Both the position numbers and the translations under genes were made by a program. Under the pieces are notes generated by a model. That model saw only the letters and a list, made by a program, of their open reading frames with translations, did not search any database and was not told where the DNA came from. A stretch of 50,824 nt of DNA from Oscillospiraceae bacterium Zagget12 (GTDB lineage Bacteria > Bacillota > Clostridia > UBA1381). Location: assembly GCA_001941225.1 (NCBI GenBank), contig MSHM01000031.1, positions 1 through 50,824 on the forward strand, given 5' to 3'. This document shows, piece after piece, positions 2,259 through 10,108 of the stretch. Numbering within the stretch: the first letter of the stretch is position 1; the number at the start of each line of letters is the position of its first letter.

Positions 2259-4796
2259 TCAGCACACACCGGCGACAATAAGTATAGTATTTGTATCGCC
2301 GTCCCATATCACCGCCGCGCCGAATGCCTCCACCGCCGCTCTTACCGGCAGGCAGGTTCTGCCGCCTATTATACGCGGCGCGGCATCGAGAGTTATTTCC
2401 TCTGTTTTTACCGAGCCGTCAAGCGGATTTGTTACCTCCTTTATCATAACGTCACTGCCGACAGTGAGCGTTACGGTTGTGGTGTCGTCGCTTATTACCG
2501 CCCTATTTTCTTCCGCGTCCCATTCAACCGTTTTTTCAAGCGTTTCCATCAACGCGCGTATAGGCACAAGCACGCGGCTGTTTACAACCACCGGCGCTTG
2601 ATCGGCAAATTCCATAACATAATTGCCGTCTATATTTACCGTTATATCCGCGCCGTCCTCGATAATATCCTCCGATTTTTCGGTCGCGCCGGACGTGTCA
2701 ACGCCGAGCGCAGCAAAGCCGTAATCAAAGAGCTTTATCGTATCGGTAAAGCGCGCCTCGTTTGAATCGGACGGCAGTGTCACTGTTATCACGCGCTTGC
2801 CGTCGCGCTCAGCCGTGCCGCACATACAATAACCCGACGCGGTCGTCATACCGTTCTTAAATCCGTCCGCGCCCTCGTAATAATAATCCGTGAAAATCTT
2901 ATTCAGATTGTAATACGTATTCCCATGGAACTCCACCGACGCCTGCTTGGTGCGCTCCAATACCTCCGGATAATCCTCTATCATACACCGCGTCATTACG
3001 GCAACCTCGCGGGCGGACATAAGGTTTTCGCTCTGCGTTTCGCTGTCGAGGCAAACACCGGTGCCGTTATAAAATACGGAATCGATGCCTATTTCCTCCG
3101 CTTTTGCGTTCATACGCTTTACAAATTCCTCCTCACTGCCGCAAAGCAGCTCCGCCGCTGCGGTGACGCACGCAGCCGCGGAATCTATGACTATCATATC
3201 TATCATTTCATCAAGAGTATAAACCTCGTCATATTCGAGATTTACCATCATTTTATAGTCCTCAACGCGCGACAGGTTATACGCATTCTCACTTATCGGA
3301 ACAACGGTGTCAAGCGTCACCTCGCCGTCCGCAACAGCATCAAGCAGAACATACACCGTCATCATCTTGGCAATCGACGCTACGGGCTTTTGCGTGTCCG
3401 CGTCAAGCGCGAAAAGCTCATCGCCGGTGTCATAATCCATAATAAACGCGCTCTCGGAGGTTATTGTGTTCTCCAACACCGGCGCAGACGTAGGCTCGGG
3501 TGTCGGCTCGGCTGTCGGTGCCGCCGTAGGCTCGGGAGTTTTATCATAAACGGTGATATACGCCGCCGCGTCGCTTGCGCTCCACACAAAATCATATATT
3601 CCCGCAAACTCGTCCACGGATACGCACATATATCCGGAAACATTATAAACGTCCGTCAAGGTGTGCCGCTCCGCGCCGTCGTCCAAAACGACACTAATCT
3701 CGCTGCTGTTTGCTATTGAATACGCCTTTTGACCGTTTTTGCCCTTGTATATATCGGTCGAAATCGGCGCGACCGTCTTGTCCTTATTATATTTAAGCGT
3801 AAGCGTTTTAGACGCGTCATCATAGCTTACGTCAAAGCCGTAATTCGCCAAATCCTCCGCGATAACAACGGCGTGCGGAGTGGAGCCCTTATACGCGAAC
3901 GTCGGAACCTCCGCGCCGTTTATAAACGCGCGCATATCGGTATAATAAATACTGCCGTATTTTTCATTCGCCGCCGCAAAGCCGTAATCGAGCAGACGCG
4001 CGGTATCGACAAAACGCTGTCCGGTCGATGAAGAGCTCATCGTTACGGAAATCATACGTCTGCCGTTCCTCACGGCGGTGCCGCAGAAACAGTAGCCGGC
4101 AGCTGAGGTTGTACCGGTTTTCAGTCCGTCCGCGCCGCTGTAATAATAGGTGTCAAGCAAATGATTTGTGGTATTGTAGGTGTTTCCGTGAAACGTCACC
4201 GACGTTTTCGCGCTGCGCGTCAAAATATCGGGATAGTCGCGTATGATATTGCGCGCAAGTTTCGCCATAGATACGGGCGTTATCTCATTATCCGCGATAC
4301 CGCAGCTGTCGCGGTAATACGCGTTGAGTCCCATCTCCCCTACCTTGGCGTTCATACGGTCCACAAACGCCGCCTCACTGCCCGCCACAAGCTCCGCCAG
4401 TGCGATAGCCGCGCCGCTTGCGGAATACGTGACAACAACGCCTATCATTTCGTCCACCGTGTATGTGGTGTTGTAATACAGCGGCAGAACGCTCTGATAC
4501 ACGGAATTGCGCGATTTGTTATACACATTCTCGCTTATCGGAACAACGGTGTCAAGACTGATTTCGCCGTTCTCAATCGCCTCATACACGCAGTAGAGAT
4601 TCATAATCTTAGTCATACTCGCCGGAACCCTCGCGGTGTTTCCGTTGTACTCGTAATAAACCTCGCCGGTTTCATAGTCCATAACGCACGCTCCGGCGGA
4701 GGAAATATAATTCCCGCCGACATACGCCGCGCCCGCCGGCACGGCAAGCGAAAGCATAATAACCATGCTTAAAAATACAGATAATACCTTTTTCAT
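2259..4796 (-). CDS. Secreted tandem D-Ala-D-Ala carboxypeptidase-like protein (two S11 domains plus stalk domain)
   Basis: An 845-residue protein: signal peptide (about 1-24), first peptidase S11 domain (about 28-280), spacer, Pro-Thr linker (about 420-440), second S11 domain (about 442-695), and a copper-amine-oxidase-like domain (about 725-845). S11 enzymes remove the terminal D-Ala of peptidoglycan stem peptides. The first domain has S60-M-T-K63 and K226-T-G228, but the SxN motif reads SAS (125-127). The second keeps S474-I-A-K477, but SxN reads SAA (539-541) and KTG reads KNG (647-649). The second copy may therefore be catalytically dead and serve in binding. The usual family length is about 400 residues, so this is a duplicated fusion. 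GGAGGGG precedes the ATG. Confidence 0.85.
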   Translation of the reverse strand: MKKVLSVFLSMVIMLSLAVPAGAAYVGGNYISSAGACVMDYETGEVYYEYNGNTARVPASMTKIMNLYCVYEAIENGEISLDTVVPISENVYNKSRNSVYQSVLPLYYNTTYTVDEMIGVVVTYSASGAAIALAELVAGSEAAFVDRMNAKVGEMGLNAYYRDSCGIADNEITPVSMAKLARNIIRDYPDILTRSAKTSVTFHGNTYNTTNHLLDTYYYSGADGLKTGTTSAAGYCFCGTAVRNGRRMISVTMSSSSTGQRFVDTARLLDYGFAAANEKYGSIYYTDMRAFINGAEVPTFAYKGSTPHAVVIAEDLANYGFDVSYDDASKTLTLKYNKDKTVAPISTDIYKGKNGQKAYSIANSSEISVVLDDGAERHTLTDVYNVSGYMCVSVDEFAGIYDFVWSASDAAAYITVYDKTPEPTAAPTAEPTPEPTSAPVLENTITSESAFIMDYDTGDELFALDADTQKPVASIAKMMTVYVLLDAVADGEVTLDTVVPISENAYNLSRVEDYKMMVNLEYDEVYTLDEMIDMIVIDSAAACVTAAAELLCGSEEEFVKRMNAKAEEIGIDSVFYNGTGVCLDSETQSENLMSAREVAVMTRCMIEDYPEVLERTKQASVEFHGNTYYNLNKIFTDYYYEGADGFKNGMTTASGYCMCGTAERDGKRVITVTLPSDSNEARFTDTIKLFDYGFAALGVDTSGATEKSEDIIEDGADITVNIDGNYVMEFADQAPVVVNSRVLVPIRALMETLEKTVEWDAEENRAVISDDTTTVTLTVGSDVMIKEVTNPLDGSVKTEEITLDAAPRIIGGRTCLPVRAAVEAFGAAVIWDGDTNTILIVAGVC

Positions 4797-4947: not shown

Positions 4948-6642
4948 TTATCTGTCAGTGCCGTCTCCTATAAAATAGGCGAAATTCATTTGATTTTGCG
5001 CTACCTCGGCAAGGTTCACACAGCTGTTTCCCATACGATCGATACAATAAAGTATTTTTATATAAGGCTGCGAGAGAGCCTTTTTACATTTGCCCCTGTT
5101 CACGCGCTGCATATGCTGCTTACGCATTTCTATATCCAAATTGAGTACTTCCTCCTTATGGCTTAAAACCGTTTCCAGCTTGCTCTTATCGCCGTTTTTC
5201 AGTGCCGACAGCGCGTTTTCATACATTGTTTCTATCCTCATCAGACTGCTTTCAATATCGTTCAAGGCGTCCTTCGAATAATTATACTTTTTGTCTATCT
5301 TCTCCAGAAGAGAATCCGCCATTTCAACGGATAGACTGCCCATACGCTCGACATCGGCAAGCACATACATAAGCTTTGCTGTTTGGGTTGCCTGCCTTTC
5401 CGTCAGCACGCCCGCCGCAAAAAGCTCCGCGAGATATTCGTTTATCTCAGAATTCAACACTCCGAGCGATTCTCCGTATTCCCTAATTTTCCGAATGGCG
5501 GACGATTTGCCGTCTTTGACCGTGCCTATGACATTCGTAAACATTTCCTTGACAAGCTCACTGTAATTAAGTATCTCCTTTGCCACAAGCTGCAATGCCG
5601 CCGCCGGCTGTGTAATTACATTCCTGTCAAGATAGCGCGGCTTTGCGGGGTTTTCAAACTCGTGCTTGCCGTCGGGTATAATCTTCATAACTATCTTTAC
5701 CATAAGACCCAGAAGTCCTATCCAGATAAGCGTCATCGTTATATTAAATGTAGTATGAGCGTTGGCTATCTGACGCGATATAACATCTATTTCCGCGCCG
5801 GAGGGCGATATATATCTTACAAACGCCGCCAACGGATTTATAAGCGAAATGAACAGCAGAGCGCCGGACACGTTAAATAATGTATGCGCAAGTGCGGTTC
5901 GTTTCGCGTTTTTGGATTGACCTATCGATGCCAAAAGCGCGGTAATGGTTGTGCCGATATTGTCGCCGAACAAAATCGGAATGGCTCCGGTTAAACCCAA
6001 TATACTTGTAACTCCGTCGGCTCCGGCTTGCGACGCGAAGTTTTGCAGAACGGCAATGGTGGCGCTGCTGCTCTGAACAACCAGCGTCATAAGAGTTCCC
6101 ACGGCTACGCCGAGAATAGGAACGTCGGCGACTTTGGCAATCATATTCGTGAACACCGGACTTGACGCAAGCGGTTTCATTACATCGCCCATTGTTTCAA
6201 TGCCCAAGAACAGAAGTCCGAATGCGAAAATCGTCATTCCGATATTTTTAAGCTTTTCCTTTTTGCTTATAAACGAAATTATAAATCCCGCAAAAATAAA
6301 TACATATATGTAATCCGTTATCTTAAACGCGATTATCTGCGCCGTTATGGTCGTTCCGATATTCGCTCCGAAAATTATCGAGATTGCCTGCGGGAGCGTC
6401 ATAAGTCCCGCGCTTACAAAGCCTATCGCCATAACGGTGGTCGCGCTGCTGCTTTGCAGTACCGCCGTTACAAGCGCGCCCGCAAGCACTCCCAAAAGAC
6501 GGTTCTTTGTAAGAAGTCCGAGTATGCGTTTCATTTTTTCGCCCGCCGCTTTTTGCAGACATTCGCTCATTAGGTTCATACCGAATATGAAAACCGCTAA
6601 GCCGCCGACAAGTCCGAAAATTATTTGTAATGTGTCGTTCAT
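4948..6642 (-). CDS. Na+/phosphate cotransporter family protein with C-terminal PhoU-like domain
   Basis: A 564-residue membrane protein. The N-terminal 320 residues contain two inverted Na/Pi symporter repeats, each marked by QSSSAT (in 'VLQSSSATTV' and 'VVQSSSATIA'). The last 220 residues form helical PhoU-like repeats. The family (NptA/PitA-II type, PF02690) couples sodium entry to phosphate uptake; the PhoU part is thought to regulate it. The start is one base beyond the stop of the PstS-like gene, and its ribosome binding site AAGGAAGGG lies within the end of that gene, so the two are translated together. No ABC phosphate permease genes are nearby. Confidence 0.9.
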   Translation of the reverse strand: MNDTLQIIFGLVGGLAVFIFGMNLMSECLQKAAGEKMKRILGLLTKNRLLGVLAGALVTAVLQSSSATTVMAIGFVSAGLMTLPQAISIIFGANIGTTITAQIIAFKITDYIYVFIFAGFIISFISKKEKLKNIGMTIFAFGLLFLGIETMGDVMKPLASSPVFTNMIAKVADVPILGVAVGTLMTLVVQSSSATIAVLQNFASQAGADGVTSILGLTGAIPILFGDNIGTTITALLASIGQSKNAKRTALAHTLFNVSGALLFISLINPLAAFVRYISPSGAEIDVISRQIANAHTTFNITMTLIWIGLLGLMVKIVMKIIPDGKHEFENPAKPRYLDRNVITQPAAALQLVAKEILNYSELVKEMFTNVIGTVKDGKSSAIRKIREYGESLGVLNSEINEYLAELFAAGVLTERQATQTAKLMYVLADVERMGSLSVEMADSLLEKIDKKYNYSKDALNDIESSLMRIETMYENALSALKNGDKSKLETVLSHKEEVLNLDIEMRKQHMQRVNRGKCKKALSQPYIKILYCIDRMGNSCVNLAEVAQNQMNFAYFIGDGTDR

Positions 6643-6643
6643 A

Positions 6644-7537
6644 TTATTCCCTTCCTTTGTTTATATCTTCCCAATTTATAATTTTTCCGGTGAACAACGC
6701 CTTTAATTCCTCCGAAGTAACGCTTTCCAATGGATTTTCGGCGTTTACAATCACAGCGATTCCGTCATATGCGACAACCTTATAATCAAGAAGTTCTTTT
6801 TCATAGTCCTTCAATTCTCTCGATGCCATTCCAAGGCCGCACAGACCCTGCATAGCGTCGTTTATGCCGCCGGTGGAGTCCGAAACGGTTATTTCAACGG
6901 ACGCGTTTGTGTTTATAGTCTCATATTCCTCAGCCAGCTCGCGAATCAACGGTGCGGCTGAGGTAGAGCCGTGTATGGTTACGGTTCCGCCGCTCATATC
7001 GGATAGAAAATTAACACTGTTATGAACCGGCGCGTAGGATTTCTCAACAATAGATTGACCCTCGCCCATAACATAGATCATAAAATCCTGTTCGACGGCG
7101 TTCAGCTCGCCCGACCATACAAGACAAAACGGTCTGCTGAGAGCGTATTTCCCGTTTACAACATTTTCAAGAGTTCCTGCGGCTCCGTCAACCGTCAGCG
7201 TTTTTACGTTATTTCCCAATTCCGTTCCCATTGAAACATAGCCTATCGCCGACTTGTCACCGGCGACCGCCTCGACAACCGAATCCGTGTCGGACGCTGT
7301 AAGCGCTCCGTCCGCGGCGGCGTCCGCACCCGAATCCGTGTCGGCAAAGCCCAATAAATCCGCGAATGAATTTCTTGTGCCGGAGCCCTCCTCGCGCGAT
7401 ACGACTTGAACCGCGCCCAACGCGCCAAGTCCGCTCACCTGCCGAACGCCCTCCGATGTGCCGCCGCAGCCGCTAAGCGCGAAAGCCGCCGTCAATAAAA
7501 ACAGCAAAAATATTGGTAGGAATTTCTTTTGAAACAT
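6644..7537 (-). CDS. PstS-like phosphate-binding lipoprotein with circularly permuted order
   Basis: A 297-residue lipoprotein with lipobox LSGC (Cys about 24). All PstS hallmarks are present, but in swapped order. The part that is normally C-terminal comes first: VVSREEGSGTR at about 47-55, then IGYVSMG and YALSRPF. A linker follows. The part that is normally N-terminal comes last: GSTSAAPLIREL from about 190, GLGMASREL, DGIAVIVN, and LFTGKIINW at the very end. In standard PstS, 'FTGKI.NW' is followed directly by the 'SREEGSGTR' segment. The domain is therefore circularly permuted, possibly from a trimmed tandem duplication. The ATG at 7537 has GGAGAGGTG well placed; the GTG at 7546 is too close to it. 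It is co-translated with the Na/Pi symporter. Confidence 0.85.
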   Translation of the reverse strand: MFQKKFLPIFLLFLLTAAFALSGCGGTSEGVRQVSGLGALGAVQVVSREEGSGTRNSFADLLGFADTDSGADAAADGALTASDTDSVVEAVAGDKSAIGYVSMGTELGNNVKTLTVDGAAGTLENVVNGKYALSRPFCLVWSGELNAVEQDFMIYVMGEGQSIVEKSYAPVHNSVNFLSDMSGGTVTIHGSTSAAPLIRELAEEYETINTNASVEITVSDSTGGINDAMQGLCGLGMASRELKDYEKELLDYKVVAYDGIAVIVNAENPLESVTSEELKALFTGKIINWEDINKGRE

Positions 7538-7556
7538 ATGGTTCACCTCTCCGTTT

Positions 7557-7636: not shown

Positions 7637-7691
7637 ATTATATATGCCTTATGTAAAATCCGCTATCACGTTTATGTAAACACTGTGTAAA
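7637..7691 (-). promoter_or_regulatory. Promoter with Pho-box-like direct repeats
   Basis: A -10 TATAAT lies at 7637-7642. Upstream, TTTACA occurs three times (7652-7657, 7675-7680, 7686-7691) at spacings of 23 and 11 bp, close to multiples of one helical turn. There is no good -35. Direct TTxACA-type repeats with an 11-bp period are the known binding pattern of PhoP-type response regulators in Firmicutes, which fits phosphate-transport genes. Confidence 0.55.
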
Positions 7692-7848
7692 AAGTAGTCG
7701 GATTGTGACGTATTTTGCGGATTGATTTTTTGACAAAATATATGAAATATCTTGCAAAATGAGGTGTTTTGCTGTGATAAAATAATTATGTCAGCAGAAG
7801 TGGATATTGATATTAGCAGTTGTAATGATAAAAAATTGCCCTAAATAA
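7692..7848. other. Intergenic stretch between the phosphate operon and the esterase gene
   Basis: AT-rich and without a supported gene. A TTGACA at 7730 on + has no matching -10. An 18-codon frame on + (7788-7844) lacks a ribosome binding site. Confidence 0.3.
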
Positions 7849-7884
7849 AAAACAGCCGAGGTTTATATAGTCCTCGGCTGTTTT
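7849..7884. terminator. Bidirectional rho-independent terminator
   Basis: A perfect 13-bp stem (AAAACAGCCGAGG / CCTCGGCTGTTTT) with a 10-base loop. It lies about 55 bases past the stop of the minus-strand tannase-like gene. Confidence 0.8.
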
Positions 7885-7939
7885 AGTGTTTATTCACAAA
7901 TTTAATGTTTGAACAGTTTTAAAGCTCAAGTTTAAATGC

Positions 7940-10012
7940 TTATTCCAGACACTCGTTCACCCATTCGATGAAGTTATCGGTTGAGTTTCCGGTACGCTCC
8001 GCTGTGGTGTGTCCCGCGCCCCAAATCATTTCAAAATCAACATCTCTGCCGTAGTTTTCAAGGGCAAGAGTAAGATTTATTTCCGTTGAAAGCGCGGTAT
8101 CGCCCTGGTTTATTCCGGTGCGTATGCGCCAATATTCCGCAACATTAGATGTCTGATAACCGTCGTAATAATCCGAAAGATAATACATCGGGTTATACAT
8201 ATTCACTCTGTAATCTACGGTATTGCCGAGAGAATCGGTCTTTGCCAAATCCTCCGCGTATGCCGCGCCGTAGGTTTCGTTATCTTTTAACAGCTCCGCC
8301 ATAATCGGGTCGAAGTGCGCGCCGTTTCCGTCGGCATAGCCGAACAGCGTGTTCTCGCCCTGCGCCCTGTCGAGGTCGTCAAACGCGCCGACGCTCTTTG
8401 ACGCGTTCTTGCATGCGTTCACAAAATCCTCAACGCTCGTAACCGTCGCGGTGTTTGTCGCGCTGTCATAAGTAACCCATTCGCTGTCCTTGTTAAGGCT
8501 CGCGATATAGTCCTCGGCGGTTTCGTAGGTAACGTCCTCATCGGTGTCCGTGTCATCATTTGTTTCCAAACGCGTGATGCCGTCAAGCTCCTCGAAGTTG
8601 ATGTTATCCATACCACCGCCAAAGCCGCCTTCGCCTCTGCCGCCTTGACCGCCGCCCATGCCACCGGACTGCTGCGGAGTATACGGGAATTCTGTGTCTG
8701 TAAGGAAGTTATTCAGCGAACGCTCGATTTCGGATTTTACGTAATCATAATAGCTGTCCGCCTGATATATTCCGCTTTCGGATTCCGTAAGCGTCAGGAC
8801 ATTTCCGTCCTCGTCCTTTAGACCAATCTCGTTGATATACTCGGCAAATGCCGCCGCCATACCGTCGGACAGCGTCTGCATATCATCGGTCAATCCGCTG
8901 CGGCTTACGCCCAAATTCCACTCATACGCCTCGTTCGCCATATCGAGGTTGGTTATCGGACACCAGCACATTGAGCCGGTAACAGCATCGCTGTAGCCAT
9001 CAACCGCGCCTATCGCGTCAAGGTATGGAGTATACAAGTCGCTGTCGCCCGTAGCGCCCATTAGCGCACTCTGCGCGCCGCCGCCGCTCATTCCGAACGT
9101 GAATATTCTGTCCGTACTTCCGGCGATATTATCGGCATTATAGCGGATATATTTAACCGCCGCCTTTAGGTCGGTAACTCCCGTCGGAGCGCCCGCGTCA
9201 CGTCCGCGGCAGCCCGCGTACACATATACAAATCCCGCATCTGTGTAGCTCTTAACATCGCTTGCGTAAGCCGTGGGAGCCGCCATCGCAGAATATCCCG
9301 GTGTGTTTACCGGAATTACCATCGGCGCGGTTGCCGCCGTGTAGCCGTTTACGCTTGCCTCGCTGTTTACGGCGCAGGTGTATGTACCGTCACCGTTATC
9401 GGTCGCCGTCATATACGCGCCCGGCACAAAAACGCCGAGTGTTTCATAGGTTAAATCCGCCGGATTTGCGCAGTATTGTATGCCGACCTGCCAATATACG
9501 TCATCATCGGCGTTGTAATTCCATTTTGTGTTGTCAATCTTGGCAAGCTCCGTGCTTTCGGTCTTGCTTGAAATAGTCACTTTCATAGTTTCCTGCTCCC
9601 ATTCAACATTCGCGTCAAGGGTTTCCGAAATAAATCTTATCGGCACCATTGTGGTGTCGTCCTTAAGCTCCGGTGCCGCCAAAAGTGTGTAGCTCCCACC
9701 GTTTACAGTCGCATCCGTGCTGCCTATCTTAAGTGTTATGGTCTTATCGCCGTCTTGAACGGTTACTGTGTAGTCCGACTCGTTCCAGTCAACCTGTGCG
9801 CCGAGTCCCTCACTGATTACTCTCAGCGGAACAAGAGTGGTTCCGTCGATGATATACGACGGAGTAACCTCGATTTCGGTGCCGTTTACACTGATGTGAT
9901 TTTCTCCGACAATGAATGAAATATCCACGTCGTCAAGCGCCGACACTCCCGCGGCGGGCAATGTCAGCATTGCGGCGCTCAGCAGCGCCACCGTTGTTTT
10001 TTTGCCTTTCAT
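7940..10012 (-). CDS. Secreted tannase-like (subtype B) alpha/beta hydrolase with N-terminal stalk domain
   Basis: A 690-residue protein: signal peptide (about 1-25), copper-amine-oxidase-like domain (about 28-150), then a large alpha/beta hydrolase. The nucleophile motif GMSGGG places Ser at about 309. Asp of NQGDTA (about 638) and His of GAGHTT (about 668) are spaced like the Asp and His of bacterial tannases. 'CRGRDAGAPTG' and 'MCWCPITNLD' also fit that family. The likely role is hydrolysis of aromatic (for example galloyl) esters outside the cell; the substrate is inferred. A Gly-rich insert (about 455-480) interrupts the lid region. The start at 10012 has GGAGGA at good spacing and gives a clean signal peptide; the frame extends 10 codons further without support. 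Confidence 0.75.
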   Translation of the reverse strand: MKGKKTTVALLSAAMLTLPAAGVSALDDVDISFIVGENHISVNGTEIEVTPSYIIDGTTLVPLRVISEGLGAQVDWNESDYTVTVQDGDKTITLKIGSTDATVNGGSYTLLAAPELKDDTTMVPIRFISETLDANVEWEQETMKVTISSKTESTELAKIDNTKWNYNADDDVYWQVGIQYCANPADLTYETLGVFVPGAYMTATDNGDGTYTCAVNSEASVNGYTAATAPMVIPVNTPGYSAMAAPTAYASDVKSYTDAGFVYVYAGCRGRDAGAPTGVTDLKAAVKYIRYNADNIAGSTDRIFTFGMSGGGAQSALMGATGDSDLYTPYLDAIGAVDGYSDAVTGSMCWCPITNLDMANEAYEWNLGVSRSGLTDDMQTLSDGMAAAFAEYINEIGLKDEDGNVLTLTESESGIYQADSYYDYVKSEIERSLNNFLTDTEFPYTPQQSGGMGGGQGGRGEGGFGGGMDNINFEELDGITRLETNDDTDTDEDVTYETAEDYIASLNKDSEWVTYDSATNTATVTSVEDFVNACKNASKSVGAFDDLDRAQGENTLFGYADGNGAHFDPIMAELLKDNETYGAAYAEDLAKTDSLGNTVDYRVNMYNPMYYLSDYYDGYQTSNVAEYWRIRTGINQGDTALSTEINLTLALENYGRDVDFEMIWGAGHTTAERTGNSTDNFIEWVNECLE

Positions 10013-10108
10013 AGCAAAATCCTCCTTAATTTTTCTTAACACTTTTTATTTATGTAAATACTGCCGCCTAAGCGGAGGCATATTTATGTACGGTTAATTA
10101 TGAGGAGC

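Follow-up and report, generated by a model that had tools for sequence, protein, structure and literature searches.

Genes at the locus and the order of the PstS halves

The window, a 50,824-nucleotide stretch of contig MSHM01000031.1 from Oscillospiraceae bacterium Zagget12, carries on its reverse strand a gene for a circularly permuted PstS lipoprotein (6644..7537) and, directly behind it, nptA for a Na+/Pi cotransporter (4948..6642). The pstS open reading frame as listed (6644-7546, GTG start) is single and intact. Judging from the sequence, the ATG at 7537, preceded by a good ribosome site (GGAGAGGTGAACCAT-ATG, with the Shine-Dalgarno element GGAGAGGTG), is the likelier start than the GTG at 7546, which lies in the same frame; the preliminary description had given 7537 as its end coordinate too. 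The lipobox LSGC has its cysteine (Cys27 of the GTG-started frame) at 7466..7468, and this residue is invariant in our alignment of permuted sequences.

The genes around the pair lie on the same strand. Directly downstream of nptA, 2259-4796 encodes a protein of 845 aa in which two Peptidase_S11 (D-Ala-D-Ala carboxypeptidase) domains stand in tandem, followed at the C-terminus by a domain of the copper amine oxidase N-terminal type. The upstream gene (7940-10042) encodes a 700-aa secreted protein in which a domain of the latter type is fused to a BD-FAE esterase-like fold, and the same domain is found in a neighbor of the corresponding pair in another genome, G006 (L053:3715-4413).

In the permuted protein, the ordinary C-terminal half comes first (residues 43-180, 7007..7420) and includes R51-E52 and S55-G56-T57-R58. 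A new linker between the former C- and N-termini occupies about residues 172-186 (6989..7033), and residues 173-186 or so are without regular structure according to DSSP on the predicted model. The ordinary N-terminal half comes last (residues 184-298, 6653..6997) with GSTS, SDST, ASREL and DGIAVIVN, and stops at the old mid-lobe cut point. The order that had been read from the letters, SREEGSGTR, IGYVSMG and LSRPF followed by GSTSAAPL, ASREL, DGIAVIVN and FTGKIINW, was found with every segment present.

Profile searches gave the same picture. PF12849 matched the protein with 106.6 bits (Pfam gathering cut-off 27) in two stretches, residues 186-294 corresponding to profile positions 9-125, and a six-frame search placed profile positions 9-126 downstream of 127-248 within the gene. 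The usual N-to-C order, which would have spoken against the permutation, was not seen in the protein as encoded. TIGR02136 (NCBIfam) also matched in two crossed stretches. Its score of 155.4 bits is below the curated cut-off of 206.6 and rose to 164.3 after re-ordering. Putting the halves back into ordinary order in silico is a direct test of circular permutation: the swapped-back protein matched PF12849 in one colinear stretch (residues 5-226 to profile 9-248) and TIGR02136 likewise (7-249 to profile 40-291). The gene at 6644-7537 therefore encodes a genuine circularly permuted PstS, as had been proposed. In comparison with ordinary PstS (4GD5/4Q8R type; PF12849, TIGR02136), both halves are homologous and the pocket motifs are kept, whereas the halves are swapped, the new ends lie inside the second lobe and a new linker connects the old ends.

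Fold, spread and origin of the permuted form

A search of the PDB with phmmer found one entry colinear with the query in one stretch (residues 41-295, E 2e-47), namely 4H1X, 'Phosphate-binding protein pstS 2', while the other main PstS chains matched in two swapped stretches. The half matches to 9L8J, whose title speaks of an 'evolutionary hotspot', are in ordinary order. 4H1X is SP_2084 of Streptococcus pneumoniae TIGR4 and was released in 2012; a crystal structure of the permuted form has thus been available since that year. The pneumococcal PstS2 shares 36% identity with our PstS, and the two are colinear along the entire mature protein. An AlphaFold2 model built from 37 permuted sequences (pLDDT 87.5, pTM 0.79) is one complete two-lobed binding protein, and 4H1X was far ahead in the fold comparison (Foldseek E 8e-30; VIA-align Z 32.4, rmsd 2.0 over 251 residues). 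The next matches were generic type II binding proteins with Z of about 11, and the ordinary PstS 4GD5 gave 66 aligned columns only. These results bear out the expectation that the fold could be intact with new termini: in the superposition, which had been suggested as a check, the two predicted halves form a single protein colinear with 4H1X.

From what is known of the type II binding-protein family and from the elements of the model, we place the cut, which would fall within the ordinary second lobe, between FTGKI.NW and VVSREEGSGTR; this leaves the first lobe uninterrupted. The second lobe would then be assembled from N- and C-terminal segments, the first lobe would sit mid-chain with the new linker, and the phosphate cleft would be unchanged by the permutation. 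R51, S55-G56-T57, S194, S196, S224, S242-R243 and D261 are invariant in the 37 permuted sequences including ours, and the motifs GSTS, SDST, ASR and REEGSGTR are invariant or nearly so. These positions align with phosphate contacts of known PstS structures. The survival of the substrate-contacting segments, noted earlier from one sequence, thus extends to all 37. Judging from the family, the ligand would be Pi.

The permuted form is not a one-off but a widespread clade. With a profile of 13 permuted sequences, a colinear permuted PstS was found in at least 75 of 391 sampled genomes of the same class (match span of about 227 profile positions or more, counted by hand); this is a lower bound because only six candidates per genome were scored. 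When open reading frames were sorted by separate profiles for the halves, 73 of the 131 distinct two-half ORFs were permuted and 58 ordinary, and some of the permuted ones sit in single-contig genomes. Wherever downstream genes were readable, pstC comes next after the permuted gene in nearly all loci, in many of them along with pstA, pstB and phoU. Contig C44 of the window genome itself carries a complete pstSCAB-phoU operon with a permuted pstS, and plasmids of Monoglobus pectinilyticus and Treponema saccharophilum bear permuted pstS next to pstCAB-phoU. Both plasmid copies are annotated as 'substrate-binding domain-containing protein'; crossed matches to TIGR02136 below the cut-off may explain such generic names. 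Since the window copy stays below the TIGR02136 cut-off and the two checked members are generically named, such pst operons may seem to be devoid of PstS.

A pairing with Na/Pi symporters as a general trait of the permuted form was rejected, because nearly all other readable permuted loci lead into pstC. The loci that do not are L009, with no recognized pst or nptA gene, and L055 and L081, which are cut by a contig end or unmatched. L009:5998-6876 is a permuted pstS of Parasporobacterium paucivorans flanked by ClpB/hydrolase genes on one side and an unrelated membrane protein gene on the other. In two other genomes, two tandem permuted pstS genes are found per pst operon (L167:4377-6252 in G261 and L168:4224-6217 in G155).

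For phylogeny, each half was aligned on its own and the two alignments were then concatenated in ordinary order. The careful tree has 87 sequences, leaving out the longest branches, and all permuted ones fall on one side of a branch (support 94/96; 98% of 200 bootstrap trees), with our PstS and 4H1X both inside the permuted clade. A quick tree of the full 125 rows requires two changes of order, with long-branch warnings, and the second change is due to one long-branch sequence from G255. The permuted clade is thus probably the product of one ancient event, and several independent permutations are not needed, given the single change in the careful tree. The G255 sequence (L169:4959-6056) is a 365-aa PstS with swapped halves encoded before pstCAB-phoU; in the quick tree it lies apart from the main permuted clade, and it may represent a separate permutation event or be an artefact of its long branch. 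The origin by tandem duplication that had been put forward is plausible; no duplicated intermediates (NCN, CNC or NCNC) were found among the 131 distinct two-half ORFs, an absence that is still compatible with this route. Within the genus of the window genome, some species have ordinary and some have permuted pst operons. PstC of the permuted operons scores 541-590 bits against PstC of C44, versus about 260 bits for the ordinary ones, and this distance suggests replacement of whole operons within the genus rather than local rearrangement.

The pstS-nptA pair and its Pho-box

The gene next to the permuted pstS does encode a Na/Pi symporter, as had been noticed. NptA has two PF02690 repeats and a C-terminal PhoU domain (204.1 and 66.3 bits) and is an ordinary NptA-type protein by domain content. 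Unlike the usual NptA-type gene, it is tightly coupled to a binding-protein gene, an arrangement seen here in three genomes only. The nptA ATG lies 1 base past the pstS stop and its ribosome site lies inside pstS, and translational coupling of the two genes is predicted from this arrangement. The window copy has no pstCAB neighbor and is not located in a pstSCAB-phoU operon.

Among the sampled genomes, the pair occurs in the window genome, in G006 of the same genus (PstS 92% and NptA 95% identical to those of the window) and in G287 of another family (68% and 87%), the genes of the latter two pairs being 1 and 3 bases apart. A search for permuted pstS beside Na/Pi symporters, proposed in the preliminary description, thus succeeded in three genomes, but such a neighborhood is the exception and not the rule among permuted loci. 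None of the flanking genes in G006 and G287 match anything in the window: the neighbors are a CorA-type gene in G006, and tryptophan synthase alpha and FtsW-type genes in G287. The nearest NptA outside the trio, that of G114 (same family, 69% identity), is encoded without an adjacent pstS. A comparison of the two congeners gave a dN/dS of about 0.11 (pstS) and about 0.05 (nptA), and these low values indicate that both genes are under purifying selection.

The three nptA-linked PstS proteins form a group (100/100) inside the permuted clade with a stem length of 1.19 changes per column, and this long stem means that ligand or role may have shifted. Clostridial operonic permuted PstS proteins (e.g. 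those of G000:C44 and the Monoglobus plasmid) share with the window PstS the order of halves, the lipoprotein start and the clade, at 37-46% identity. The window PstS differs from them in its long branch, a one-residue insertion after YVSMG and changed charges on a surface helix. On this helix, E202 (97%) and K203 (89%) are nearly fixed in the operonic permuted clade, whereas the trio has R, R and Q at the former site and E at the latter. These changes would be compatible with lost docking to PstCA, though the helix is also unconserved in ordinary PstS. The window PstS is a diverged paralogue that left the pstSCAB-phoU operon. The pneumococcal PstS2 belongs to the same clade, but its pst2 genes form an ABC operon that ends in phoU2 and is constitutive (PMC4913102), while the window pstS precedes nptA and has a perfect Pho-box.

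This Pho-box, TTTACA-N5-TTTACA-N17-TTTACA, was found by pattern search at 7652..7691 on the reverse strand, and a TATAAT -10-like element follows 9 bases past the third repeat (7637..7642). The exact triple box occurs once in the 1.9 Mb genome against about 0.002 expected from base composition, and it fits the tandem TTWACA box by which members of the Pho regulon are recognized. Triple boxes of the same spacing at a similar distance precede many other permuted and ordinary pstS genes; those of the G287 pair and of the C44 pst operon each have two mismatches. The upstream sequence thus gives strong evidence for a PhoP/PhoB-type control of pstS-nptA, and the pair would be induced by Pi starvation. 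A strong intrinsic-terminator-like hairpin at 7842-7890 on the reverse strand (CAGCCGAGG...CCTCGGCTG with a T run) separates the upstream esterase gene from the Pho-box promoter. No Rfam match at 7732-7938 reached its gathering score, and all of them overlap the upstream gene's terminator; the predicted fold of the pstS leader RNA is unremarkable (z -1.71).

Possible roles of the pair and their meaning

We consider it fairly probable that this diverged permuted PstS, in a Pho-box-controlled unit with NptA, is a Pi-starvation lipoprotein that raises the Pi supply of NptA. Under Pi starvation, the two-gene unit would be made via the Pho-box, and PstS, lipid-anchored on the cell surface, would capture Pi and raise the supply to NptA, be it through local enrichment of Pi on the cell surface or through docking on the symporter. 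As for the part that PstS serves NptA, the chances seem about evenly balanced, and a direct hand-over of Pi to NptA may take place but is uncertain. No NptA is known to require a binding protein. The stricter form, a binding-protein-dependent Na+/Pi symporter in which PstS captures Pi at low concentration and delivers it directly to NptA, appears doubtful to us. The finding of the pair in three genomes only, the long stem of the trio, the solitary nptA of G114 and the imperfect Pho-box of G287 all speak against our main explanation. Pneumococcal Pst1, Pst2 and NptA each import Pi (PMC4913102), and since NptA alone is of low affinity there (PMC4913102), a binding partner would meet a real need.

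Orphan binding proteins that serve a distant ABC permease are common, and PstS could dock on the PstCAB of its own genome, the site before nptA merely giving it Pho control. The complete permuted operon on C44 and the conserved pocket residues would suit such a role, but pstS and nptA stay together with gaps of 1-3 bases in three genomes whose flanking genes differ, and the altered E202/K203 helix is compatible with lost docking, with the caveat on ordinary PstS given above; we hold this explanation to be unlikely. The fast divergence of the trio and the fact that NptA-type symporters act alone in pneumococcus (PMC4913102) might instead point to a Pi sensor or buffer, or to a binder of another oxyanion (e.g. 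arsenate, phosphite or a phospho-compound), without a transport partner. Such a role seems quite improbable in view of the unchanged pocket positions listed above and the Pho-box regulation, which fits Pi. Finally, the genome assembly consists of 44 contigs and is 77% complete, which might raise a suspicion of misassembly, frameshift or a decaying pseudogene. The chance of such an artefact is negligible, as the ORF is single and intact, copies of 92% and 68% identity exist in two other genomes and the dN/dS is low. Chance, misassembly, frameshift or pseudogene as a source of the swapped order were rejected, because the same order is present in the 73 distinct ORFs, some of them in single-contig genomes, and in the crystal structure 4H1X.

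We found no paper linking circular permutation with PstS or with the window protein, though most subscription journals were outside the search and this is weak evidence of absence. The earlier remark that no standard description of such a form was known holds for the papers searched; the permuted form itself is present in databases and in the PDB. What appears to be new is the nptA-linked branch, which would not be a new kind of system unless dependence of the symporter on PstS is shown.

Ancient, widespread and functional natural permutants are a direct test of the folding and docking of type II binding proteins. The continuous and the split lobes have traded places, yet the permuted clade is still found in pstSCAB operons. 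Moreover, the nptA-linked branch raises the question of whether secondary symport of Pi can draw on a binding protein. TRAP and TTT systems are binding-protein-dependent secondary transporters, and the likeness to them, in that a binding protein on the surface accompanies an ion-driven symporter, is an analogy only: their membrane proteins belong to families unrelated to NptA, and the dependence of NptA on PstS is a proposal. If it is true, a binding-protein-dependent NptA would be a TRAP-like, ATP-free, high-affinity phosphate uptake system, previously undescribed.
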